A stretch of DNA of 64,000 nt from Sideroxydans sp. (GCA_024636935.1 JAGXGC010000012.1:1-64000); one strand, 5' to 3'. Positions 39,942-56,126 are shown, counted from the first letter of the stretch. A program made the numbers and translations. Notes: generated from the sequence alone by a model not told the origin.

Positions 39942-42900
39942 TTAGTCTCGCACTATTTCATGCCACGACACGCGACCGGTACGTGCCCGGTCGCCACGCT
40001 GGTTACCACCGGCACAACCAGCCCCCACACAACTGCCAGTTGGTGCCACAACCTCGGTTGTCGTGTTACCCAATGCATCGGTCGTTACTATAGTTGTAGT
40101 GCCGTCTGAATTGTGCGTACGCACAATAGTAGCGGTAGATGAATTGGCATACGTAATAACAGTCGTGATAATTTCGTTGCCCCCGACATCATAGGATATC
40201 GTGGTCGCAGTACTGGTCACATCACCACCACCACCAGATAAGTCACCAATCTTGGGATCGGAAGATCCCGCTGCCGGATTGACAGATGAAGAAGTCCCAT
40301 TATCCTGAGCAGGCGCCTTAGTCCAGCCAGTACTGTCATAACAAAGGTTGTTAGGATGGTGCCAATAGATCGACCATTCAACCAACAGGTAATCATCGTA
40401 ATACGCTTTCTTCAACCGCCAGCCATATTCCAGACGACCATTGGGATCATTCAGCTCGATTGCCTCATTAGGGGTCGAAGCTTTGATCACCTGCAAGGTC
40501 AAAGCACCGTTATGCCGCACACCTGCATAACTATTGCCTGAAGTGCCACTAACCCCGGGCCCATCATTGCCATTGGTGGGCGGCGTCACCGGCTGGTACA
40601 GGTTGCTATCGCCCGTACCATCACTCTGCCACACACAAGCATACTTGTTCGGTATCAAACCAGCGCGCACATCGCCGTTACCCCACCAGTTCTTGGCGGT
40701 CAAGGCATCCTTGGGCATATTGACAGCCAAGCTGCCAACCGTATTGCGGGTATAAGTAGGAAGCGTAGCCAAGTCAAGGCTGGCAGTATTTGCCAAATAA
40801 TCCTTGACTGAGATGTAGCCTGCATCCACGTTGTACAGGTAAGTTGAATCACCGATATGCAATTTCACCGCCGGACTCAGGTACTGATTGTGCAGCAGCA
40901 CTTTGAACGACGTCGCAGTGCTAGTGATGGCTTTGCTGATATTGAATCCGGTATCACTAGGTGCCAGTGTGTTCACACCCGTCACATTGAACACATCATC
41001 CCACTGGTGAACGTGCTTTACCTTGGAGCAGCTCTTGTAACCTGTGATCGTAGGGGCTGTACCGCCGCTAAAAGTCCCGCCCACCAAATGAGGGGCCAGG
41101 TTCTCCCATCCCGTAGCCGCGACCGGCGTGACGCCGCCCGCTGTAGCTGTCTTGCTGATGGTGATATCGCCAAAATCGCTCAAACTCCCCACCGCGACAG
41201 AGGCACCATTTCCGTAAGTCGTAGTATCCACCAGACATACTGTATTACTGGATTGCGCGGCGCAGGTGGGGGTCACAGAGTTCCCGCCGACATATGCTTG
41301 GATACTGCCGCCTGTACCAATATCGCTCACCACCGTGCTCACCACTTCTGCGGGAGTCTTGCTTCTACCCGGAGTGATGGCATCTTGATCTGCCGAGACG
41401 CCGCCAACCTTGATCGATTTGCTAGAAAGATCGTCATCGATCATTGGCGTGCCGCTGTTGCGTGTCTTGGTGCCGCTGAAGGTGATCAGGCCCGTGGGAC
41501 GGACACCTGCCGTGCCGGGCAAGCCGGCTTGTGAGGTGCCGTTAACGAATGTGAACGTCTTGCCGTTCCAGCTCGTTCCGGCCGGAGCGGTCACCGTCAC
41601 CGTACTGCTGGATACGGTAGCGGTAAAACCGTTGGTCACATTATTCTTGATGGTGGTGGCATTGGTCGTGGTGGCAGTGCCATTTGGAAGGTCATAAATG
41701 GTCAGCGCTGGCACGATCTCCGTACCATCCACCAAAATGCCGCCCAGTGTCGCGGGCAAGCTGCTTCCCGTGCTTCCTACAGAGATAGTGGCTGTAGCGC
41801 CAGTGCCGCCCGAAGTCGTATACCCGCAAGGCGGATTACCATAAAAGATATCCACGTCGAAGTGACCGCCTGTCACACCATAGTCAACGGGAATCTGCGG
41901 AAATACCACATCCGGGTTCTGATTGAAGAGCGTGAAATTCAGGGTGGCCAATTGCACCAACACAGGCTGCGACATCACACCATGATCCTGAAACTTGCCG
42001 ACGATGATGCCATCCGTTGTCAGGATCGGGTCATCGACGTTCGTCCCCATAGGCAGCGCATCTGTTGCGGTGTAGGTGATGCGATCCGCATCTGTCAACA
42101 ATAGATCGCCATTCATATCGAAGATCGGGCGGTTCTCGCTGCCCGATCCTCCGGACAGGTAATCCAGCTCCATCAACCAGTTCTCACCATAGACCGTCGT
42201 TGTGGTGCCAGTGGGAATATAGGATTTTGTGGGATCGTAACTGGTAAAGAAGAAAGTACCGTTCTCAATGAACATACCCTGCCCGACAACGCGTTCTCCA
42301 GCAGGCAATGCCACTTTCCAACCTTTATAACCAGTCATTGAGTTATTGCTTGCACGCCTCACGCGCACCGAACTCCCAGTCTGCGTATAACTACGTTCTT
42401 CGAGAATCTGTGACTGCACAGCGGTGTTGGCTACCGGTGCACCATCCCACACGCCATAGACGTAATAAACCGAGCTATCCGCCATGTCGGTATCCGTGAA
42501 CAACCCTCCAGTCCCGAATGTCACCATGTAACCACCATCCGGATGACGGGCAGTCGCCGGATTGCCTACTATGGGTTGAGCGGGGGAAGTGACCAGCAAA
42601 GCACTTGCCGTCCAGCTCGCCGCCGTAGTGCTAGTAAGGTCGAACTTCCATAGCGTACCGTTCAGGTCGCCCGCATAGACACGATCCGCCTTACCGTCAA
42701 AATTCACGTCGATCGCCTTGGGTGCTGAAAGACCGTTCGGGCTGGCAGCTGTTCCGCTGGTGCCGGCCTGGATGGCACGTATCAACGTGCCATCCGCAGC
42801 ATTGATCACATACAGATAAGCCTGATAGTCACCTGCATCGTTGTAGCCGTTTCCAACGATGACCGCATCCTGCCCGGTAGGAACTTTCGCGATCAATGGC

Positions 42901-43889
42901 GTGCTATCGGTATAGCCCAAGTTGTTGTAGTCGCTGTCTGCATTGTGATTCCGCTTACCCCCCGCCGCATCGCGCATCACCTCCCACAGCAGCTTGCTTG
43001 CCACGCCCGTTTCGGTTGTTGCCGTCAATCCCGAACTACCATCAATCTTCAGGGCGTAAACACCCTTGCCACCCGCCCCGAGATCACCAGCGATGATGCG
43101 AGTAGCGGCTCCAGAGATTGTGACGGAGCCAACATTGATCTGGCCATCTGCAAAATAGTCATGCGTATAGGGATTATTGGCATATGTCTTCAGCTTGGAT
43201 AACAACACGGAAGGTACATATGCCCAGCGTTCTACACCGCTGTCTGCATTGAATGCATGCAACATCCCGTCATTGGCAGATACAAAGATCGTAGGATTAG
43301 TGGCGTCATCCACGTAATACGGCCGAGAATGAACGATATCCGCCAACACATGTTTGCGATAACGCATCTGTGGAAGATTCAACCCCTCGTTTGTGCGATC
43401 ACCGCGCAGATAATTCACGACTTGCGTCGCAGTCCAGGTTGTAGTCGACAATGTCAGCGAAAGCGCCGTTTGCTGTGCAGCAGATAAACTTGTTGCACGG
43501 AAAGGAACGCCTGTTTTGGTGCTGTCATTCATGGTTGCGATTAAACGATCAGCGTCCCAATCCATTTGATCCAGCTGGTTGGCAGCCCCGCCAGTCCAAC
43601 GTTCGGCAGCGATATCTACCGTACCCGTCGCGCTAACTGGATAAGCGTACAGATTGCCGCTCCAGAACTCGCGTTCGTATTCAGTGCGATATTCCGTCTC
43701 ATTGCCGCTGGTCAAGTTGTAGTTCGACAGATCCACTTGAGCCACGTGCCCCGTCGGCTGAACTGCAGGTGAATAGGTCGCGATAGCGATCGCCATGCGC
43801 ATGATGGCGAACGAGATACCAAGGATGACAAACATACTCAGCCAGGATAGGTCTCGACGAGATTCAAAAGGGATGGATTTAACGCTCAT
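39942..43889 (-). CDS. pilY1: PilY1-like pilus tip protein without an N-terminal vWA domain and with a long C-terminal region
   Basis: Beta-propeller with VFVSANDGMLHAFNADSGVERWAYVPS and Ca2+-site-like DVNFDGKADRVYAGD; placed between pilX and pilE. Confidence 0.88.
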   Translation of the reverse strand: MSVKSIPFESRRDLSWLSMFVILGISFAIMRMAIAIATYSPAVQPTGHVAQVDLSNYNLTSGNETEYRTEYEREFWSGNLYAYPVSATGTVDIAAERWTGGAANQLDQMDWDADRLIATMNDSTKTGVPFRATSLSAAQQTALSLTLSTTTWTATQVVNYLRGDRTNEGLNLPQMRYRKHVLADIVHSRPYYVDDATNPTIFVSANDGMLHAFNADSGVERWAYVPSVLLSKLKTYANNPYTHDYFADGQINVGSVTISGAATRIIAGDLGAGGKGVYALKIDGSSGLTATTETGVASKLLWEVMRDAAGGKRNHNADSDYNNLGYTDSTPLIAKVPTGQDAVIVGNGYNDAGDYQAYLYVINAADGTLIRAIQAGTSGTAASPNGLSAPKAIDVNFDGKADRVYAGDLNGTLWKFDLTSTTAASWTASALLVTSPAQPIVGNPATARHPDGGYMVTFGTGGLFTDTDMADSSVYYVYGVWDGAPVANTAVQSQILEERSYTQTGSSVRVRRASNNSMTGYKGWKVALPAGERVVGQGMFIENGTFFFTSYDPTKSYIPTGTTTTVYGENWLMELDYLSGGSGSENRPIFDMNGDLLLTDADRITYTATDALPMGTNVDDPILTTDGIIVGKFQDHGVMSQPVLVQLATLNFTLFNQNPDVVFPQIPVDYGVTGGHFDVDIFYGNPPCGYTTSGGTGATATISVGSTGSSLPATLGGILVDGTEIVPALTIYDLPNGTATTTNATTIKNNVTNGFTATVSSSTVTVTAPAGTSWNGKTFTFVNGTSQAGLPGTAGVRPTGLITFSGTKTRNSGTPMIDDDLSSKSIKVGGVSADQDAITPGRSKTPAEVVSTVVSDIGTGGSIQAYVGGNSVTPTCAAQSSNTVCLVDTTTYGNGASVAVGSLSDFGDITISKTATAGGVTPVAATGWENLAPHLVGGTFSGGTAPTITGYKSCSKVKHVHQWDDVFNVTGVNTLAPSDTGFNISKAITSTATSFKVLLHNQYLSPAVKLHIGDSTYLYNVDAGYISVKDYLANTASLDLATLPTYTRNTVGSLAVNMPKDALTAKNWWGNGDVRAGLIPNKYACVWQSDGTGDSNLYQPVTPPTNGNDGPGVSGTSGNSYAGVRHNGALTLQVIKASTPNEAIELNDPNGRLEYGWRLKKAYYDDYLLVEWSIYWHHPNNLCYDSTGWTKAPAQDNGTSSSVNPAAGSSDPKIGDLSGGGGDVTSTATTISYDVGGNEIITTVITYANSSTATIVRTHNSDGTTTIVTTDALGNTTTEVVAPTGSCVGAGCAGGNQRGDRARTGRVSWHEIVRD

Positions 43890-43903
43890 GACATTTCTCC
43901 TTG

Positions 43904-44428
43904 TCAGCAACTCAGGACGCTGTAATAGGATTCGACGAATTTCACCGCTCCGCGCGCACTGGTGCCGCGCCCGACGATACGATAGGTATTGGCCATGTTG
44001 CAGGCGGCGCTCGTCCGTCCGCCAATATCAGAACCGGATGTGAGCAATTGATTGTTCTCGGACATCAGGTCTATGAAATAGCGTTGTGCTGAATTTCCCC
44101 CGACGGCGACGGAGTTATCATCAGTCCACGTCATGCTTAGCGAATCGGGTTCAGCTGCCAATGTATAGAGTCCGCCGACAGTAGTAGCCGAGAATGCCGC
44201 ATTACGGAAATTTTCCACACCACCGGTGCTACCACCGATCCATTCCTCACCTGCTGCTATTGCGGCTTCTGCATTATTCAATGCGGAATCCTGGAATTGC
44301 AGGTTTCCCGCCAACTTGAAAGCCGTATCCGAAGTAACCATCGCACCGACCCCGAGCAGCATCAGAATAACCAATATAATCATACTGATGATCAAGGATG
44401 ATCCACGCTGTAGTAAAGAGTCCATCAC
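43904..44428 (-). CDS. pilX: Type IV pilus assembly protein PilX
   Basis: QRGSSLIISMIILVILMLLGVGAM, PilX N-terminal type. Confidence 0.88.
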   Translation of the reverse strand: MMDSLLQRGSSLIISMIILVILMLLGVGAMVTSDTAFKLAGNLQFQDSALNNAEAAIAAGEEWIGGSTGGVENFRNAAFSATTVGGLYTLAAEPDSLSMTWTDDNSVAVGGNSAQRYFIDLMSENNQLLTSGSDIGGRTSAACNMANTYRIVGRGTSARGAVKFVESYYSVLSC

Positions 44429-44435
44429 TCGCTCC

Positions 44436-45404
44436 TTAATCTGTGTTTCTCAGCTGAACGACGGATGTAAACAATTGCCGCCGGAAATTGTCGTTGACCG
44501 TATATGTCACATCTCCCATCTGATAGCTGTTTGTATTGGCATAGCCAGATTCCACCTGACGGTTTCGGGACAGGAGCCAGAGACGCACAGCCACGACCTC
44601 TTCCCAGTCAGTGAAACCACCCGCCGTAGCCGTACCGACTATCCCATCAGGGTCGAAATATTGAGAATTAAGATCTGTCGAAAGTCGGGAAAATTGCACC
44701 TGAAAATGCTCGATCCCAGGCACCACCTCCTCATCCACCATCGAACCAGCCAACAAGCTCAAGCGGCGCAATGCAGGCATCGTAGAATCCGCATCGGCCA
44801 CCCCGATGTAATAGACATATTCCTGCACCAGATAATCCGCTAGCGGTGAACCCACAACCGAAGGTGAGCCGCTGATTGCCAACTGCCCCCCTGTAGCGGC
44901 AAACATCACTGCCTCGGTATAAGTTGAACGCAAATAATGGTTGCCCCCAACCAGCGCACCTGACTTTAACGGCGCACCTGCCACACGACGGATCACCAGC
45001 AGATCTCCACGCAAAGGGGCAGTCGAAAGACAATTGGCAGAGAAAGGGTTGCTGTCATTGGCGCCCCATACGCTCTGGCGCAGGTTGCCTATGAAGCTGC
45101 CCGATGCACCGCATTCATTTGTTGCACCACCGGTACTTGCATCCACCCTCAACTGCTCAGCCTTAACGCCCCAGGTGTAACCGCGAAAGCCGGCATGTCG
45201 CAACTGTGTGCGCAAATGATCAAGTGCATAACGACCGTTCTCCTGCAATTCCGAAGTCCGCTCATTGCTCTTGCTGCTTTTCGTATTGCTTACCAATACA
45301 CCAACCAAGGCAGCAATGATGATAAGGCCAACAGTAATGGAGATCATCATCTCCACGATACTGAAACCTGCATTCGATAGAATTTTCCTGCGCTGGGTAT
45401 TCAT
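44436..45404 (-). CDS. pilW: Type IV pilus assembly protein PilW
   Basis: NAGFSIVEMMISITVGLIIIAALVGVL; gene order. Confidence 0.9.
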   Translation of the reverse strand: MNTQRRKILSNAGFSIVEMMISITVGLIIIAALVGVLVSNTKSSKSNERTSELQENGRYALDHLRTQLRHAGFRGYTWGVKAEQLRVDASTGGATNECGASGSFIGNLRQSVWGANDSNPFSANCLSTAPLRGDLLVIRRVAGAPLKSGALVGGNHYLRSTYTEAVMFAATGGQLAISGSPSVVGSPLADYLVQEYVYYIGVADADSTMPALRRLSLLAGSMVDEEVVPGIEHFQVQFSRLSTDLNSQYFDPDGIVGTATAGGFTDWEEVVAVRLWLLSRNRQVESGYANTNSYQMGDVTYTVNDNFRRQLFTSVVQLRNTD

Positions 45405-45892
45405 CAGCTGTCACTCCTTATCGAGCGCGTTGCCGTATATGAGAAAGACTCGCCAGTACTACCCGCATTTCCACTGCGATCCACCCAATTGATACGTATG
45501 CGATATGAACTTGGATTCCCAATAGACAACGACTCAACCAGCCAAGTCGCTTGCGGCAACCCGGAGGTAATGATCGCACTCTCCCATTGCGCGACATCCC
45601 AAACCGCCAAGGTAGAGTTGTCGCAAGCACTTGCACTGCAATCCGTAGATGCAACACTAGGGGAACTAGCCGTAGCCACTGCATAGTTACCCGCAACAGC
45701 GGCGATCTCGTTGCCCTCCATGCGCTCCGCCAAGTCATTGGCCAAGAACACAGCTTGCGTACGAAAATCACCACTCTTTGCCAGTTTCATGGCCTGCAAT
45801 TGCATACCGGCAGTTCCCAGCAAAGCGGTAGCGATGATCACCAGCGTGATCAAGATTTCAATCATTGAAAATCCGCGTTGAATGCACTTCAT
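45404..45892 (-). CDS. pilV: Type IV pilus modification protein PilV
   Basis: QRGFSMIEILITLVIIATALLGTAGMQLQAMK. Confidence 0.9.
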   Translation of the reverse strand: MKCIQRGFSMIEILITLVIIATALLGTAGMQLQAMKLAKSGDFRTQAVFLANDLAERMEGNEIAAVAGNYAVATASSPSVASTDCSASACDNSTLAVWDVAQWESAIITSGLPQATWLVESLSIGNPSSYRIRINWVDRSGNAGSTGESFSYTATRSIRSDS

Positions 45893-45896
45893 ATTC

Positions 45897-46418
45897 TCAC
45901 CTCGAAATATTCCCCGTGGCCGACACAGCTAGCGTCTTGGTTTGAGCGCCATCCCAACTACCGGCCAACGACAATGTCACCCCGCCTCCGCCCCCTTGGG
46001 TCCCATTCGGGTTATATCGAACGGGTGTCGCCGAAGCTGTCAAGGTAAGAGATGAGTGCAAAGCACCTCGCAGCACGACAGGATTTGGATCTGTTGCGCT
46101 GGTTGAATCACAATTATTATCCCCATCAACATCGAAACACACCAACCAGCCTGTAGACCAATTGGTCAATGCAGAGCACGCAGCACCATCAGTGGTGTTG
46201 CAGACCAGCACGCGCGCATTACGTTTGATCGCTTCGCTACGCGCGCGGTTAAGATCAGCAAGGAGTTGAGATTGCGCACTTCCTTGGCGAGTGTCATTCA
46301 TCAGGGAAGTGAACGAAGGAGCCGCCAATGATGCGAGAATTGCGGCTATCGCAATAACAATCAACAACTCCACCAGAGTGAAGCCGGCTTGCCCCTTAAG
46401 TTGGAAAGATCGCCACAT
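45897..46418 (-). CDS. fimT: GspH/FimT-family pseudopilin
   Basis: QAGFTLVELLIVIAIAAILASLAAPSF; C-terminal GspH domain. Confidence 0.9.
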   Translation of the reverse strand: MWRSFQLKGQAGFTLVELLIVIAIAAILASLAAPSFTSLMNDTRQGSAQSQLLADLNRARSEAIKRNARVLVCNTTDGAACSALTNWSTGWLVCFDVDGDNNCDSTSATDPNPVVLRGALHSSLTLTASATPVRYNPNGTQGGGGGVTLSLAGSWDGAQTKTLAVSATGNISR

Positions 46419-46535
46419 GCAACCACCCTTTAATGCCGTTAAGATGATCGCAGTATCAAACTGTCTCAAATGGAAAGCAAAACCAACCCTGATGAACGGT
46501 TAATCGGACGGATAAACGGCAAGCGGCCAGATGTA

Positions 46536-47462
46536 TCATTCAGACAACAAAGCCTTGGGGATCGGAAACACCACGTTCTCCTCTATCCCATCCAACTCAT
46601 TCACCTCACCCGCACCCAGCTCCTGTAGACGGGCGATCACCTCAGTCACTAACACTTCTGGCGCAGATGCACCAGCGCTGATACCGATGTTCTGTTTTCC
46701 TTGCAACCATTCGGCTTGCACTTCACTGGCGTTATCCACCAGATACGCAGTTACGCCGATATTCTTGGCGACTTCGCGCAGGCGGTTGGAATTAGAACTA
46801 TTCGGTGAGCCGACCACGATGACCAGATCACATTGCTGAGCCAGCAGCTTCACAGCATCCTGCCGGTTCTGAGTGGCGTAGCAGATATCGTCTTTCTTGG
46901 GGCCTGTGATGGATGGAAAGCGCGCTTTGAGGGCTGCGATGATGGTGCTGGCATCGTCAACCGACAGCGTGGTCTGCGTCACATAGGACAGGTTCTGTTC
47001 GTCCTGCACTTGCAATGTATGTACGTCAGCGGGCGATTCGACCAGATACATACCACCTTCACTCTGCCCCATGGTGCCTTCCACTTCGGGATGCCCCTTG
47101 TGGCCGATCATCACGATCTCTTTGCCCTGATCATGCATGCGCGACACTTGCAGGTGAACCTTGGTTACCAACGGACAGGTCGCGTCGAATACAGTGAGGT
47201 TGCGCGCTTCCGCTTCACGTCGCACAGCTTGCGACACGCCATGGGCGCTGTAAATGAGGATGCTGCCGGATGGCACATCCTGAAGATCTTCGATAAAGAC
47301 CGCACCTTTAGCCTTCAGTCCTTCAACCACGAACTTGTTGTGCACGACTTCATGACGCACATAGATCGGTGCACCATGTAGTTCGATGGCACGTTCAACG
47401 ATCTCGATGGCACGATCGACACCGGCGCAGAAGCCGCGCGGATTGGCGAGCATGATTTGCAT
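46536..47462 (-). CDS. ispH: 4-hydroxy-3-methylbut-2-enyl diphosphate reductase
   Basis: [39 protein letters not shown]. Confidence 0.96.
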
Positions 47463-47519
47463 GGATGGTCCTTGAATAGTGTTACAGGAAGGTACGAATG
47501 TTACCGCAATCGGGGACTG

Positions 47520-47861
47520 TCAGCGCCAGTCGTCGATGTCGAGTGCGGTTTCGAACTGAGGCATCTCCTGCAAAAAGCGGGAAAGTGCAAAGGCTGCGGT
47601 CGGCTGCATCTGGATGCAGATCATCCTGACATTGATCGCCTGCATGGCACGGGCCAGCATATCCAGCCATGCGTAATAGACGGGATCGATCAGCGACTGG
47701 TCGGAGAGGTCGTAATACAGACGCACGGCACGCGCCTGCAACAGACGCGCCGAGATGGCTTCGATCAGTTGGCCGCTGTTGCGCGTATTCAAACTCTTCG
47801 ACGGATCGAGCAGAAAATCACCGCGCCCGATCTGCGTCAGGTGTAATCCGGGAATCGACAT
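47520..47861 (-). CDS. RsbS-like stand-alone STAS-domain protein
   Basis: 113 aa; LYYDLSDQSLIDPVYYAWLDML aligns with the STAS phosphosite region; adjacent to RsbR- and RsbT-like genes. Confidence 0.75.
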   Translation of the reverse strand: MSIPGLHLTQIGRGDFLLDPSKSLNTRNSGQLIEAISARLLQARAVRLYYDLSDQSLIDPVYYAWLDMLARAMQAINVRMICIQMQPTAAFALSRFLQEMPQFETALDIDDWR

Positions 47862-47863
47862 CT

Positions 47864-48724
47864 TCAGTGCGAGACGGTGATGCCCATGCGCGAGAATGCT
47901 TCCTTGAGTCCGTCGGACATACTTGCGCGTGTAGTGATGTTGTTGAAATCGATGTTCAGACTGACCAGTGCACGGGCGATCTCGGGATGGATACCGGTGA
48001 TGATCGCATCAGAGCCCATCAATTGCACAGCGCGTACCATCTGGATCAAGTGGTGGGAAACCTGCGAGTCGATGCTCTTCACGCCGGTCAGATCCATCAC
48101 CACCGCCTTGGCATGATCTTTCGCGATGCGGTTGAGCAGCGCTTCCATCACCAGCATGGTGCGGCTCGAATCAAGCGTGCCGATGATAGGCAGTGTCAGC
48201 ACACCGTCCCATATCTCGGTGATGGGGGTCGCGGTCTCGCGAATCTCTGCCTGCAGGGCCTGCATGGTGCTCTCGCGCTCTTCAAGGTAGGCGCGGAACA
48301 CGGCCATGATGAGTTCGTTGAAGATGCCGGTGAAATAGAGCAGAACCGTGCGCGATTCGCTGAACGCGATGCCGCTCGATTTGGACAGTGCATCAATCAA
48401 CCCAAGATGCAATGTCTGGGTGTAACGCACAACATCCTCCACATGGCCGCCACGCATCAGCACCTGCTGCGATAGGCTGCCAAAAAAAGATTCAAGCGCG
48501 TGAAATTCTGGTGACTGTACATCGTACGGATCTACTGACCCCAGCAGTGAGACGATCAGACTCTCGAATTCAAGACTGATATCAGTGACTTCCTCGGAAT
48601 CCATCAGGCGCTGGTCGCCGCAGAAGTACTTTATCCCAGACGCTTCCAGTTCGGGCGCTATGCCGCTGATTTTCAGTCCGAACAAAGACTTGATTTTCTC
48701 GCTGCTGCTTTTCTTGGTCACCAT
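47864..48724 (-). CDS. RsbR-like STAS-domain stressosome protein
   Basis: C-terminal LPIIGTLDSSRTMLVMEALLNRIAKDHAKAVVMDLTGVKSIDSQVSHHLIQMVRAVQLMGSDAIITGIHPEIARALVSLNIDFNNITTRASMSDGLKEA is RsbR-type STAS. Confidence 0.9.
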   Translation of the reverse strand: MVTKKSSSEKIKSLFGLKISGIAPELEASGIKYFCGDQRLMDSEEVTDISLEFESLIVSLLGSVDPYDVQSPEFHALESFFGSLSQQVLMRGGHVEDVVRYTQTLHLGLIDALSKSSGIAFSESRTVLLYFTGIFNELIMAVFRAYLEERESTMQALQAEIRETATPITEIWDGVLTLPIIGTLDSSRTMLVMEALLNRIAKDHAKAVVMDLTGVKSIDSQVSHHLIQMVRAVQLMGSDAIITGIHPEIARALVSLNIDFNNITTRASMSDGLKEAFSRMGITVSH

Positions 48725-48748
48725 TTCTTCTCCCTCAGTATTTGCTGA

Positions 48749-49801
48749 TTATTTTCCAACAACCGAAACGCAGATCGACTGGTCGTCGGAAATGCGTCCC
48801 ATGATATTCCCCAGCGTATAGGCGATCAATTGCGGATGCTGGTTGAACAGCCCGACAAAGTTACCGGTATCCCAGTTGCGCCGAATTCCGTCGCTCGCCG
48901 TTACAACCACCGCCCGTTTACCGAGTTTTCCGCGAACTGGGCTGGTCGCCCGGTGTTCCCTGCCCAGTATTCCGGGGGCGAACCCGAAGTGCTGCATCTC
49001 ATCCTGCTCGTAAATTCTAGCGTGCATGTCACCCACCCCGTGCAGCTGAAAACCGTGACGCACGGTATCGATTTCGCAGATCGCCGCCACCGCACCGCGC
49101 GTCGAAACCAATTGTCGATCCACTTCATCCAATATCGCGCCGATGTCCGTGTGATATTCGACATGCTTCCCCAGATTGGCCGTCGCATTCTGCGCTTCCG
49201 CACCATGCCCTAGACCATCCAGATGCAGCCAACACAAGCGTCCGTCCTTTTGTTGCAGATAGATTCGATCACCGTTATGCCGGGTATCGGAAAGCGAACG
49301 GGAAAAGATTCCGATATCGTTACCCAACATTCTTGTCCTGCCCTGCCCGATATGGAAGCGGGCCAGAAAGACCGTACCGCTCCACTTGGGCATCTGACTG
49401 GGAGACCTGTGCTGAGTGTAAAAATAGGATTCGTCGCTCAGGCGACGGATGGCACCCAAACCTTTGCCGAAAGTGTTTGCGGTCGAATAACCGTCCTGCT
49501 CGGCCCGCCCCATGTCGTTGATGCCAGGACCGTAATCCAGAGAAAGAATATCCAACACTGGGCCGGGTTGCTGCCAAAGCTGGATCAGACCTCGGCCACC
49601 TGCATGCTTGATATTGTTGGTTCCCAACTCAGCAGCGACCAGCATGATGTTCTCACGCTTGAGGTCCGGTATGCCGAGCCGGTTGGTGATCGCAAAAAGT
49701 TTGGAGCGCAGCAGCACCAGAGAACTTTCATCCTGCGTGGTACTGCTGTGCAACAGTTTGCAGTCCACCGCGCTATCGAACACCTTATGCGCCCTCAACA
49801 C
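48749..49801 (-). CDS. RsbT-like anti-sigma/switch kinase fused to RsbX-like PP2C phosphatase
   Basis: N-terminal HATPase ENIMLVAAELGTNNIKHAGG and LDYGPGINDMGRAEQDGYSTANTFGKGLGAIRRLSDE; C-terminal GDRIY..LHLDGLGHGAEAQ..TASDGI..DDQSICV. Likely GTG start overlapping the upstream stop; ORF track extends to 49852. Confidence 0.88.
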   Translation of the reverse strand: MLRAHKVFDSAVDCKLLHSSTTQDESSLVLLRSKLFAITNRLGIPDLKRENIMLVAAELGTNNIKHAGGRGLIQLWQQPGPVLDILSLDYGPGINDMGRAEQDGYSTANTFGKGLGAIRRLSDESYFYTQHRSPSQMPKWSGTVFLARFHIGQGRTRMLGNDIGIFSRSLSDTRHNGDRIYLQQKDGRLCWLHLDGLGHGAEAQNATANLGKHVEYHTDIGAILDEVDRQLVSTRGAVAAICEIDTVRHGFQLHGVGDMHARIYEQDEMQHFGFAPGILGREHRATSPVRGKLGKRAVVVTASDGIRRNWDTGNFVGLFNQHPQLIAYTLGNIMGRISDDQSICVSVVGK

Positions 49802-50784
49802 ACCATTCCCGGACAATCCACAGCACACGCACCTGTACGTTGGGTTGGGCACTGGTTGATCTGTGCTTGACCGCGCCCCAATCGTTTTGCCTCGTACAGC
49901 GAACTGTCAGCACTGCGAACAAACTCTTCGAGCAGCAGTTCATCAGCAGTATCCTTGTTGATAGTGGAAACGCCGATACTGACCCTGTGTGACATCATTT
50001 CCAGCACCTGCTTCGCCTTGTCGCACGCCTGCGGATAATCGGCATAGATCACCACGGCGAACTCATCGCCTCCAAAACGGAATGCGAAATCCACATCCTC
50101 CCGGATCACCTTGCGTAAAACATCGGCCATCTTGACCAGGTGCTGATCGCCGACCTGATGACCGAACTCATCATTGACCTGCTTGAAGTGATCAAGATCG
50201 ATAAAAAGCAACGAGACTGGAGAACTTTTCTGGCGCATGGTGTGCAGAAAGATCTGCCTTAACCGCACATCGAAGGCACGCCGATTGTAAAGACCGGTCA
50301 GCGCATCCGTCTCGGCGAGGTACTGTGTTTCCTGCAGTTCATTTTGTCGACGCTTGAGGGACTGTTGCAGCAACTCAAGCTCCATTTCAGCATTCGCACG
50401 CATCTCGTCGAAATGGCGCTTCATGTCGATATTGCGCTGCAACAAAATTTCGGGATCGACCAACGCGACGGAATTTCCCATAAAGGTGCGCAACTCGGCG
50501 ATCCGGTCCGGAGCAGGCATTTTGGTCAATGTCACAATCTTGGCCTGCTCGCCCTGTCCCCAATGCACGATCAGCTGTCGATCCCGCAGGGCCAGACTGA
50601 CCGGGATCGGATTACCCAGCGCCGCACCGGCATAACGCAAACGTTCCAGCAGCCCTAAGACGGCGATAGTGGCGGCGAAAACATTCCCTCCGAGATCGCT
50701 CACGCTTTTCAGCACGAACTCGGTGAAATTCTGCAGATCAGGTTCGATCGCAAGATTTTGCTTGAGAATCTCCACCAACCCCAT
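49795..50784 (-). CDS. Diguanylate cyclase (GGDEF) with unclassified N-terminal region
   Basis: DALTGLYNRRAFD, FIDLDHFKQVNDEFGHQVGDQ, FRFGGDEFAVV. Confidence 0.94.
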   Translation of the reverse strand: MGLVEILKQNLAIEPDLQNFTEFVLKSVSDLGGNVFAATIAVLGLLERLRYAGAALGNPIPVSLALRDRQLIVHWGQGEQAKIVTLTKMPAPDRIAELRTFMGNSVALVDPEILLQRNIDMKRHFDEMRANAEMELELLQQSLKRRQNELQETQYLAETDALTGLYNRRAFDVRLRQIFLHTMRQKSSPVSLLFIDLDHFKQVNDEFGHQVGDQHLVKMADVLRKVIREDVDFAFRFGGDEFAVVIYADYPQACDKAKQVLEMMSHRVSIGVSTINKDTADELLLEEFVRSADSSLYEAKRLGRGQAQINQCPTQRTGACAVDCPGMVC

Positions 50785-50852
50785 TCCCTCTCAGGTCCTG
50801 TGAATCAATCGCACAATTGGAACACAAAAGGGAATGCATGCCTATCACGCAG

Positions 50853-50866
50853 AATGCATATGCATT
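50853..50866. repeat. 14-bp perfect palindrome AATGCATATGCATT upstream of the GGDEF operon
   Basis: Direct reading; in the 127-bp lspA-GGDEF gap. Confidence 0.85.
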
Positions 50867-50911
50867 ATTTGCCGCGGGCAGCAGGAATCGTTACAGAACA
50901 GATAGGTAACG

Positions 50912-51382
50912 CTATTCTTTGATATGACGGGCGGAACGAAAACCATCCAGAATCAACAGCACCGCCCCCAGGGTGATCGCCGAGTCAGCCACGTTGAAGG
51001 CGGCGAAGTGATAGCCCGCCGCGTAAAAATCCAGAAAGTCGACCACGTAGCCGTAGGCGATTCGGTCGATCAGATTACCTAATGCGCCACCAAGGATGAG
51101 CGCCAACGCCAAAGCAAACAGTTTCTCAGCCTGATGTTTGCGCAGCAGCCACACGATCCACACCGATGCCACGATGGCGATGAGAGAGAACAGCCAGCGT
51201 TGCATACCCCCCGCGTCGCTCAGGAAGCTGAATGCAGCGCCGGTGTTATGTGCCAGCACCAGATTGAAGAATGAGGTGATGGGTAACGATTCACCATAGA
51301 TGAAGTGGCTAGTGATCGCTGCCTTGCTCGTCTGGTCGAGCACGATGACGATGATTGCCAGCAGCAGCCAGCGCTTAAGCAT
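50912..51382 (-). CDS. lspA: Lipoprotein signal peptidase
   Basis: [46 protein letters not shown]. Confidence 0.96.
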
Positions 51383-54167
51383 GCTTGCGCGCCTCGCCGT
51401 CGCCGAACAAGTTGCTTACGCAACGTCCGCACAGCGTCGGATGATTGGCATCGCTGCCCACGTCCTCGCGGTAGTGCCAGCAGCGTTCACATTTCTCGTG
51501 TGTGCTCGGTGTGACTTTGATTTCCAACTCACCTTCGCGCTGATGCACATTGGCACGCGAGGTGATCAGCACGAAGCGCAAGTCGTCATCCAAACGCGAC
51601 AACAACTCGAAGGTCTCTTTAGCAGCGTACACATCCACTTCGGCTTGCAAGTCAGAGCCTATAGCCCCCACAGAACGCTGATCTTCCAGCTTCTTGTTGA
51701 CCAGTTCACGAACAGCGCGGATGTCTGCCCAGGCACTCACCTGCTCGCCGCTCAAACCGGAATCTGGCAACTCATACCACAGCTGTTCGAACACACTTAC
51801 CTCGTCGCCACCGTTCAGCGTCGCCCACACTTCCTCACCCGTGAAGCTGAGGATAGGTGCGATCAAGCGGCCCAGTGCCTGCGTGATGTGATACAGCGCG
51901 TTCTGTGCAGAACGGCGTGCTTTCGATGTCTCACCTGCCGTGTACAGGCGATCTTTTAGGATATTGAGATAGAAACTACCCAACTCTTCCGAACAGAAAC
52001 CTTGCAGCTTCTGCACAGCTAAGTGGAACTCGTAACGGTCGTAATCGGCACGCACATCTTCTTGCAGCTTCTGTATCAGCGACAGTGCGTAGCGGTCGAT
52101 CTCCAACCATTCAGTGACCGGCATCGCATCACGTTGCGCGTCAAAATCACTCACGTTGGCCAGCAGGAATCGCAAAGTATTGCGAATGCGGCGATAGCTG
52201 TCGGTCACTCGCTTAAGTATCTCGTCGGAGATGGTCAGCTCACCGGAGTAGTCGGTCGAAGCCGTCCACAGGCGCAGCATGTCCGCGCCCATAGTGTCGA
52301 TCACCTTCTGCGGTGCGATAACGTTGCCCTTGGATTTCGACATCTTGTGGCCCTTACCGTCCACCACGAAACCATGCGTCAGCAAGGCATCATAAGGTGC
52401 GCGACCATTGATGGCGCAACCGGTCAGCAAGGAAGACTGGAACCAACCACGATGCTGGTCTGAACCCTCCAGATACAGATCGGCCGGTGCGCGCAGACCT
52501 TCGCGTTTCGCCAGCACGGAATAATGCGTCGCACCGGAATCGAACCACACGTCCAGCGTGTCGGTCAGCTTGCGGTAGTCCACGGCATCGTCACCCAACA
52601 GCTCGGCGCTGTTCAGCGAGAACCATGCCTCGATGCCAGTCTTCTCCACGCGCTTCGCCACTTCTTCCAGCAGCTCCGGCGTACGCGGATGCAGTTGCAA
52701 TGTCTCTTTGTGCACAAAGAACGGCATCGGCACGCCCCAGTTTCGCTGACGCGATACACACCAGTCGGGACGGTTCTTGATCATCGCTTCGATGCGCGCA
52801 CGGCCCCATGCGGGGTAGAACTTGGTGTCCGCCACCGCATCGTTCGCCAGCTGGCGCAAAGTCACCCCCTCCTCGCCCTGCTCCATGCCGATGAACCACT
52901 GCGGCGTGGCGCGGAAGATGATGGGCGTCTTGTGACGCCAGCAATGCGGATAACTGTGCTTCATCTTTTCCTGATGCAGCAGATGACCGCTGGCTGCCAA
53001 CGCTTCCAGCACGATGTCGTTACCCTTCCACACGAACACACCTGCCAACGGCGTCTCGCCCACCGGCAAAGTAGTCGAGATGAACTTGCCGTCGTCACCT
53101 ACCGGATTCTCCACCGGCAAGCTATATCTCTGACCGACCACATAGTCGTCCACACCGTGCGCCGGTGCGGTATGCACTAGACCAGTACCCGCTTCCAGCG
53201 TGACGTGTTCACCGCAGATGATGGGCACGATGCGGTCATAGAACGGATGTTGCAGCGGCAGGTTCTCCAGTGCACTACCCTTGCCTGCGCCGACCACTTC
53301 CGCTTGCAGTTGATAGCGCTGCACGCAAGATTCGAGCAGATCGCCCACCAGCAGCAGATAGCCCTTGTCGGTCTTAGCCAGACGATATTCATATTCGGGA
53401 TGCACGCTCACCGCTTGGTTGGCAGGTAACGTCCAAGGCGTAGTTGTCCAGATCACCGCATACACTTTCGCGCTGCCGGGGAGCGACACACCGAGCGCGC
53501 GACCTAATGCTTCGACGTCTTTCACCTCGAAGCCAACGTCGATTGCGGGCGATACTTTGTCTTCATATTCAACTTCTGCCTCGGCCAATGCAGAGCCGCA
53601 ATCAAGACACCAGTTCACCGGCTTGCGGCCCTGATACAGATAACCGTTCTGTTGGATCTGACCTAGCGCGCGGATGATGTCCGCTTCGGTCTGGAAGTCC
53701 ATGGTCAGGTAAGGATTGTCCCAATCACCCAAAACACCGAGACGGATAAAGTCTTTCTTCTGGCGCTCGACTTGTTCCTTCGCGTATTCGCGGCACAGTT
53801 CGCGGAACTGCGATGCAGGAATCGCCTTACCGTGTTTCTTCTCCACCTGCAATTCGATGGGCAGACCGTGGCAGTCCCAGCCCGGCACATAAGGCGCATC
53901 GAAGCCGCTCAGCGTCTTGCCCTTGATGATGATGTCCTTCAACACTTTGTTTACTGCGTGGCCGATGTGGATGTCACCGTTCGCATACGGAGGGCCATCG
54001 TGCAGGATGAATTGCGGACGCCCCTTGGCGGCAGCACGGATGCGCTGATAGCGCTGCTGCGCTTGCCATTGCTCCAACATCTTCGGCTCACGCTTGGCGA
54101 GGTCGCCGCGCATGGGGAATGCCGTGTCGGGCAGGTTCAGTGGGTATTTCTTTTTGTCTTCGGCCAT
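51375..54167 (-). CDS. ileS: Isoleucyl-tRNA synthetase
   Basis: [34 protein letters not shown]-terminal zinc [10 protein letters not shown]. Confidence 0.97.
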
Positions 54168-55362: not shown

Positions 55363-55761
55363 ATGCTGAACTACCCCCGGGTTGCGATCGACTTCATGAA
55401 CAATGACCACGCCGAATTCGTCGCCCTGCGCAAACATCTGCTCAACCTGCTGCATATGGGCGCGGATCACACGCAGGTAGACGCCATGCTGGAAAACCTG
55501 TTGGAGCACACACGCCGCCACTTCGCCGAGGAAGAGCAACTGATGCTGTCGGTCAAATTCCCACCCTATCCCATGCACAAGGGGGAGCACGACAAAGTGC
55601 TGACCGACATGAATAGCCGCATCGAAAAATGGAAAGCTTCACGCAATACAAAAGATATCAGCAGCTGGCTGGAACATGCGGTACGCGACTGGTTCGTCAA
55701 TCACGTAAGCAGCATGGATTTCGTCACAGCGGCCTATATCCAAGCGCGGAGCGAAGGATGA
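55363..55761 (+). CDS. Bacteriohemerythrin-like protein, complete ligand set
   Basis: DHAEF / HFAEEE / HKGEH / HVSSMD supply the 5 His + Glu + Asp pattern. Confidence 0.9.
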   Translation: MLNYPRVAIDFMNNDHAEFVALRKHLLNLLHMGADHTQVDAMLENLLEHTRRHFAEEEQLMLSVKFPPYPMHKGEHDKVLTDMNSRIEKWKASRNTKDISSWLEHAVRDWFVNHVSSMDFVTAAYIQARSEG

Positions 55762-56126
55762 GCGAAGACATATTCGACCATAGTCATTTCGTAAAAGCCC
55801 ATGCGGCCATGCTGGAACTGCTGGACGCAGATGCGACGGAAGATGCTTTGAACGAAACGCTAGCTGCCATGCAGGGAAGTCTGCAGCAGCAGTTCTCCAA
55901 AGAAGAGCAAGCCATGCAAGCCGCACAGTTCGGCCCGCTGGATGCGCACAAGAAAGACCACGACCAAGCCTTGGAACGCCTATCTGCCCGCATCGTGCAA
56001 TGGCAGGAGTCGCACGACCGGAAAGCTTTGCTGGAATATCTGGAAGGGCCGTTCTCGGACTGGTTCGTACGCCACGTCAATACACGCGACTTCATCACTG
56101 CACAGCGACTCTCGCTGGGTGTCTAG
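55758..56126 (+). CDS. Bacteriohemerythrin-like protein, one His ligand substituted
   Basis: AHAAM / QFSKEE / HKKDH / HVNTRD; overlaps the previous gene by 4 nt (ATGA). Confidence 0.85.
   Translation: MSEDIFDHSHFVKAHAAMLELLDADATEDALNETLAAMQGSLQQQFSKEEQAMQAAQFGPLDAHKKDHDQALERLSARIVQWQESHDRKALLEYLEGPFSDWFVRHVNTRDFITAQRLSLGV

Follow-up and report, generated by a model that had tools for sequence, protein, structure and literature searches.

A stressosome-derived four-gene cassette with a diguanylate cyclase as its likely output in Sideroxydans and related bacteria

Stressosome control of c-di-GMP is already known from Moorella and has been proposed for modules of Vibrio, Chromobacterium and Herbaspirillum (PMC9237108); more broadly, c-di-GMP is one of several outputs proposed for Gram-negative rsbRSTX modules (PMC9237108; PMC4976288). 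When RsbT binds the N-terminal domain of RsbU, a coiled-coil linker becomes ordered and RsbU is activated; the same architecture has been proposed for the Moorella cyclase MtG (PMC12143880). The phosphosites of RsbS are not universal in known systems and are not conserved in V. brasiliensis RsbS (PMC4976288). B. subtilis carrying S59A RsbS remains able to signal, reaching 60% of the wild-type level when the stress is strong; this reveals a phosphorylation-independent route, and the genetics raise the question of how the stressosome passes a signal when RsbS is not phosphorylated (PMC3944199). A search of the open-access literature, which leaves most subscription papers outside its scope and is therefore weak evidence of novelty, found no description of the gene cassette analysed here.

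Gene layout, conservation and context

The window is a 64,000-nucleotide stretch of DNA from Sideroxydans sp. (GCA_024636935.1 JAGXGC010000012.1:1-64000). Positions 47520-50784 are filled by four consecutive minus-strand ORFs that are transcribed in the order G, TX, R, S and flanked by lspA and ispH. G and TX overlap by ~10 nt, and gaps of 24 nt and 2 nt separate TX from R and R from S, respectively; the four tightly packed genes of the first-pass annotation thus reappear at the same coordinates. TX likely starts with a GTG at 49804 that overlaps the G stop codon; a start further upstream is also possible. The genes and the features of their products are:

49795..50784, minus strand: G, 329-aa diguanylate cyclase encoded by the leading gene (GGDEF E=3.8e-35, Pfam)
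50455..50784, minus strand: G residues 1-110, unnamed N-terminal domain (AF2 model, pLDDT 78, predicted b-a-a-b-b-b-a)
50320..50454, minus strand: G residues 111-155, predicted long helix/coiled-coil linker (AF2 model)
49870..50316, minus strand: GGDEF catalytic domain of G (Pfam; 91/91 keep the GGDEF motif and the catalytic residues)
48749..49804, minus strand: TX, GHKL Ser/Thr kinase fused to an RsbX-type PP2C phosphatase (Pfam and solved-structure matches)
49421..49729, minus strand: kinase domain of TX (HATPase_c_2, E=1e-5)
48767..49318, minus strand: RsbX-like PP2C phosphatase domain of TX (3zt9, E=1e-16; 3w40, B. subtilis RsbX, E=2e-9)
47864..48724, minus strand: R, RsbR-type protein with a helical globin-like N-terminal domain and a STAS domain (7o0i, E=1e-30; 7b0u, E=4e-27)
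48275..48724, minus strand: globin-like sensor domain of R, RsbRD_N-like (AF2 pLDDT 87; RsbRD_N in 13/24 relatives)
48167..48169, minus strand: R Ser186, equivalent to the phosphosite Listeria Thr175/B. subtilis Thr171 (Ser in 82/82 aligned)
48065..48067, minus strand: R Ser220, equivalent to the phosphosite Listeria Thr209/B. subtilis Thr205 (Ser/Thr in 82/82 aligned)
47520..47861, minus strand: S, RsbS-type single-STAS protein (profile match to RsbS of ordinary modules)
47682..47684, minus strand: S Pro60, at the RsbS phosphoserine position, B. subtilis S59 (0/82 Ser, 4/82 Thr)

A promoter scan found no promoter-like sites above chance, and terminator-like sites numbered 6 versus 3.5 (sd 1.9) in shuffles, an uninformative difference.

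A conserved-neighbourhood search with profiles for each gene recovered the order G-TX-R-S on one strand in 80 of 80 complete related loci. The remaining 12 loci are all incomplete, each ending at a contig end, and the apparent order exception (L095) is an ORF-boundary effect only. The set comprises 76 named loci from a one-genome-per-species scan plus more from whole-genome searches, and a few of those counted are one place entered twice. Such recurrence of four genes in the same order is far beyond chance. The betaproteobacterial, Gallionellaceae setting assigned earlier also fits: of the two named relatives at 96% identity, one is a MAG of Sideroxydans and the other carries no label beyond Gammaproteobacteria, and Gallionella comes next. 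Other carriers are Sulfuricella, Sulfurimicrobium, Thiobacillus, Hydrogenophilus, Halorhodospira and, at a much greater distance, Desulfobotulus; a cassette-bearing Anaerolineae MAG contig is, we infer, probably mis-binned. The distribution is patchy, with carriers making up 7/34 genomes of the window's own genus and 29/399 genomes of the order.

The four genes are inherited together. Correlations between the distance matrices of their proteins range from 0.82 to 0.89, and 24 well-supported splits are common to the trees of G and TX, which show no conflict. The R and S trees largely agree, with 6 conflicts between them, S being short. Of the 399 genomes sampled from the order, 29 have a cassette TX, and 28 of these also have the N-terminal domain of G, the 29th being cut by a contig end; outside these genomes the domain occurs as one fragment only, in G097. 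That remnant (G097:C33:9249-9511) lies in a genome without TX and is consistent with cassette loss. The flanking genes vary between genomes, and none recurs beside the cassette as a conserved fifth member; the unit therefore consists of exactly the four genes G, TX, R and S. In two genomes (G457, loci L126/L137; G513, loci L115/L138), the cyclase cassette coexists with an ordinary stressosome module that has a separate RsbT.

In the usual gene order, minor pilin/PilY1 genes stand next to ispH. The cassette of the window lies inside a block at 39942-54167 with the order ileS, lspA, cassette, ispH and minor pilin, and the minor pilin/PilY1 genes after ispH are probably the usual ispH neighbours rather than cassette partners. 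The neighbouring minor-pilin cluster, once taken as a distinctive setting, is not a fixed one, as contexts differ between genomes; because of the same variation, minor pilins were rejected as a functional partner.

Two further observations concern the surroundings. In seven Sulfuricella-type loci (L066:7358-8506, L058:7336-8505, and also L064, L067, L069, L070 and L099), the S stop is followed after 2-6 bp by the start of a gene for a type IV pilus ATPase of the PilT/PilU family, which in four more loci lies somewhat further downstream of S; the cassette may thus have a link to pili. On the plus strand of the window, at 55363-56126, two adjacent small ORFs resemble, by eye, tandem bacteriohemerythrin-type oxygen-binding proteins and are candidates for these.

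Domains and phosphosites of the four proteins

The GGDEF, HATPase, PP2C and STAS assignments made at first pass all hold in Pfam and profile searches, S being weak on its own. In G, the canonical RxxD I-site is missing, and the invariant R228 and D232 form RxxxD instead (window about 50087-50103). Given this replacement, c-di-GMP feedback inhibition of the cassette cyclases may be absent or altered. A predicted 45-residue helix (AF2 model, moderate confidence, pLDDT 78) links the GGDEF domain to the N-terminal domain, which by analogy is probably a docking or input domain. The N-terminal domain has no Pfam family match, and comparison of its AF2 model with solved structures gave no significant fold match. 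RsbU_N was not among the matches listed for it (25 of 26 families, 26 members); the prediction also contradicts this identity, the domain being alpha/beta and RsbU_N all-helical. The same Pfam library does detect RsbU_N in the outputs of ordinary modules (L130/L137). As far as the model goes, the new domain is possibly a degenerate half of the same GHKL fold as the kinase, an idea that came from the predicted b-a-a-b-b order and weak, non-significant fold matches to chains of 6m36 (an RsbV/RsbW entry). This homology is unsupported by profile comparison, and a degenerate GHKL/RsbT-like half-domain was set aside, as profiles of several GHKL sets matched the domain no better than column-shuffled controls did.

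TX contains an intact set of catalytic residues in both domains. In the cassette alignment, E59, N63, D90, G92, G94, G113, G115 and G117 of the kinase are invariant, as are G178-D179, D196, D305 and D340 of the phosphatase, metal ligands included. The best solved match of the phosphatase domain, 3zt9, is presumably the Moorella RsbX (MtX). The first reading of TX as an RsbT::RsbX fusion is borne out for a kinase joined to RsbX and fails for RsbT: in a kinase-domain tree, one B. subtilis RsbT row of which was entered by hand and not taken from a database, the TX kinase clusters with the RsbX-fused second kinase found in ordinary modules (support 96/91) and not with RsbT. In ordinary proteobacterial modules this second RsbT-like kinase accompanies RsbT, and it is often fused to RsbX. 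The kinase::phosphatase fusion is hence widespread rather than distinctive, and it was ruled out as a novelty because fusions near a separate RsbT are common.

No separate RsbT is present in the complete cassette loci. A genome-wide search of the window's genome found no other HATPase_c_2 match in an RsbT/RsbW-sized ORF; the other matches lie in longer ORFs (at least 220 aa) and, like those of histidine kinases, start part-way through the profile. Nor did Pfam detect another SpoIIE-type phosphatase or an RsbU there; Pfam is insensitive to divergent family members and misses TX's own phosphatase domain in this genome. The other two small STAS proteins of the genome are MlaB and a chemotaxis-linked STAS protein. 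The earlier statement that no sigma factor or RsbW/RsbV pair is visible thus extends genome-wide for kinases and SpoIIE phosphatases, and for sigma factors applies next to the cassette, where none adjoins it.

R is an RsbR-type STAS protein, as first annotated. Its STAS domain is detected by Pfam (E=4e-14), and its closest solved relatives are the RsbR proteins of Vibrio (7o0i) and Listeria (7b0u). Both phosphosites, placed in register by alignment to Listeria RsbR and PMC9237128, are kept. Globins and RsbR_N (2bnl, TMt 0.72) head the fold matches of the N-terminal model; no match reached E<0.001. Since the model is globin-like and no His is conserved in this domain among the cassette relatives, it is likely a non-heme globin; the absence of a conserved His is also why a heme-binding R as in Vibrio was rejected.

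S is divergent enough that, as judged by its sequence, the STAS assignment depends on profiles. Alone it gives a weak STAS match (E=0.065), with STAS found in 19/27 relatives. All solved-structure matches of the S profile are RsbS or RsbR proteins (best E=0.025), and the profile matches the RsbS of ordinary modules with a probability of 96% and E=1e-9. The register of these matches places Pro60 at the phosphoserine position. The proposed stand-alone RsbS-like protein is therefore of RsbS type and lacks the defining phosphoserine. The Asp/Glu directly before the lost position is kept in 82/82 cassette S proteins, and the RsbS of ordinary modules mostly retain the Ser.

Models for control of the cyclase

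With a probability of roughly 0.55, we favor a stressosome-derived partner-switching cassette with c-di-GMP as its output, in which TX modifies R, S serves as an anchor and the engagement of G by TX is set by R. This reading is supported by the domains, the intact catalytic residues, the phosphosite pattern, the fixed gene order, the co-inheritance and the lack of a separate RsbT. In such a system, R and S would form the STAS core and the globin-like domain of R would act as the sensor. The kinase domain of TX would phosphorylate R at Ser186 and Ser220 and its RsbX domain would remove the phosphate; with both activities on one protein, R phosphorylation could follow the sensor state of R, and its level would store the signal. 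S, not phosphorylatable at the canonical site, would anchor TX in a fixed way. The state of R would decide whether TX is held on the core or engages the N-terminal domain and coiled coil of G, changing the dimer geometry and activity of the cyclase in the manner of RsbT acting on RsbU and, as has been proposed, on MtG.

Because the usual switch kinase and the usual phosphoserine are both missing, switching probably differs from the textbook system. With the RsbS phosphoserine gone, the release step that is understood best is missing, and TX might therefore stay on the core permanently; docking on G is proposed by analogy, although the N-terminal domain of G is other than RsbU_N. A phosphorylation-independent route like that of B. 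subtilis S59A RsbS may serve the cassette. We infer which protein touches G, the direction of control and the assembly of a large particle. A wider proposal is put forward tentatively: the cassettes might represent a widespread class without an RsbS serine switch or free RsbT, in which TX would both read and write R alone, S would be a lasting scaffold, and conformational change in the core would go straight to a cyclase docked through the new domain.

The P. aeruginosa SiaABCD unit consists of a kinase, a PP2C phosphatase, a phospho-target and a cyclase, a part list that matches the cassette and suggests another arrangement, in which the STAS core rather than TX would gate the cyclase: R or S would bind and activate G, and TX would set the binding-competent state. 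SiaC is described as binding and activating SiaD (PMC8457831). S is strongly conserved despite the loss of its phosphosite and must have a role other than phosphorylation target; it could be a constitutive partner of G, with phosphorylated R competing for S. We nevertheless consider this arrangement doubtful, as there is no homology to SiaB or SiaC, R and S being STAS proteins of the RsbR and RsbS types and the kinase a HATPase_c_2 protein, and as in known stressosome systems the kinase, not a STAS protein, contacts the output. Direct phosphorylation of G by TX, reversed by the TX phosphatase domain while R and S merely localise or restrain TX, is still less probable. The Moorella cyclase has been described as phosphorylated by an RsbT homologue (PMC4976288), and RsbT-dependent phosphorylation has been proposed for downstream proteins without RsbU_N (PMC9237108). 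However, among the conserved positions tested in the N-terminal domain of G, no Ser/Thr is retained without exception in distant cassettes (61/92 have Ser at S105), whereas R keeps both canonical sites in every aligned protein.

It is very improbable that R, S and TX control another output elsewhere, with G a co-transcribed neighbour that shares their promoter. The tie between G and TX is one of gene order and co-inheritance, which leaves room for such an output; yet G is always present where no fifth gene is, its N-terminal domain is essentially restricted to cassettes, and no RsbU/RsbW branch was found in the window's genome. G is likely the output because neither an RsbT/RsbW-sized kinase nor an RsbU phosphatase was found in that genome. 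The conserved coupling of stressosome parts to a diguanylate cyclase, with no sigma-factor branch seen, likewise favors the view of the first-pass annotation that the cyclase is the obvious output. The cassette is a natural, conserved system that lacks the RsbS serine and has kinase and phosphatase on one chain. As a small set of four proteins with an easily assayed output, c-di-GMP, it suits the study of signalling without RsbS phosphorylation, and it is a candidate c-di-GMP input route in iron- and sulfur-oxidising bacteria.

Comparison with known systems

The Moorella thermoacetica system MtR-MtS-MtT-MtX with MtG, as summarized in citing papers (Quin et al. 2012, via PMC12143880 and PMC4976288), is alike in its STAS core, RsbX-type phosphatase and GGDEF output. 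In that account Moorella has a separate RsbT, whereas kinase and phosphatase are one protein in the cassette and the kinase is of another clade. Its cyclase carries RsbU_N and GAF domains in place of the different, unnamed N-terminal domain of G, and S, unlike its Moorella counterpart, has no phosphosite. Moorella thus remains a precedent for the idea of a stressosome-linked cyclase and not for the same arrangement, as G has no RsbU_N.

The Gram-negative rsbRSTX modules of Vibrio vulnificus and V. brasiliensis (PMC9237108; PMC4976288) are alike in having no sigB branch, and Vibrio RsbR is the closest solved structure to cassette R. These modules have the order R-S-T-X, a separate RsbT, a heme globin R and output genes downstream, whereas in the cassette G leads, R has no conserved His and there is no RsbT. 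Ordinary modules of Proteobacteria (e.g. L036, L129) contain a protein homologous to TX over its full length, at about 30% identity; they differ in having a separate RsbT and then, in the two modules examined, a histidine kinase that begins with a HATPase_c_2 domain. The downstream histidine kinase (L036:2217-3947; L129:2494-3978), with an RsbT-like HATPase_c_2 instead of RsbU_N, represents another output coupling.

P. aeruginosa SiaABCD likewise unites a kinase, a PP2C phosphatase, a switch protein and a cyclase in one unit, but its switch protein and kinase are not homologous to those of the cassette, and SiaA and SiaB are separate proteins. When SiaC- and SiaB-type proteins were looked for, the cassette gave Pfam matches to STAS and HATPase_c_2/SpoIIE only, and neither type is present in it. 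Of the SigB cascade, neither the RsbU phosphatase nor the RsbV/RsbW pair was found in the window's genome; of the Moorella-type cyclase features, a GGDEF protein in the same operon is present and the RsbU_N docking domain is not. Among the features of stressosomes proper, the cassette has an RsbR with two phosphosites, a single-STAS RsbS and an RsbX-type phosphatase. Because two defining features, the stand-alone RsbT and the RsbS phosphoserine, are missing, the cassette is best called a stressosome-derived variant that appears to work in the manner of a stressosome module and clearly derives from one.
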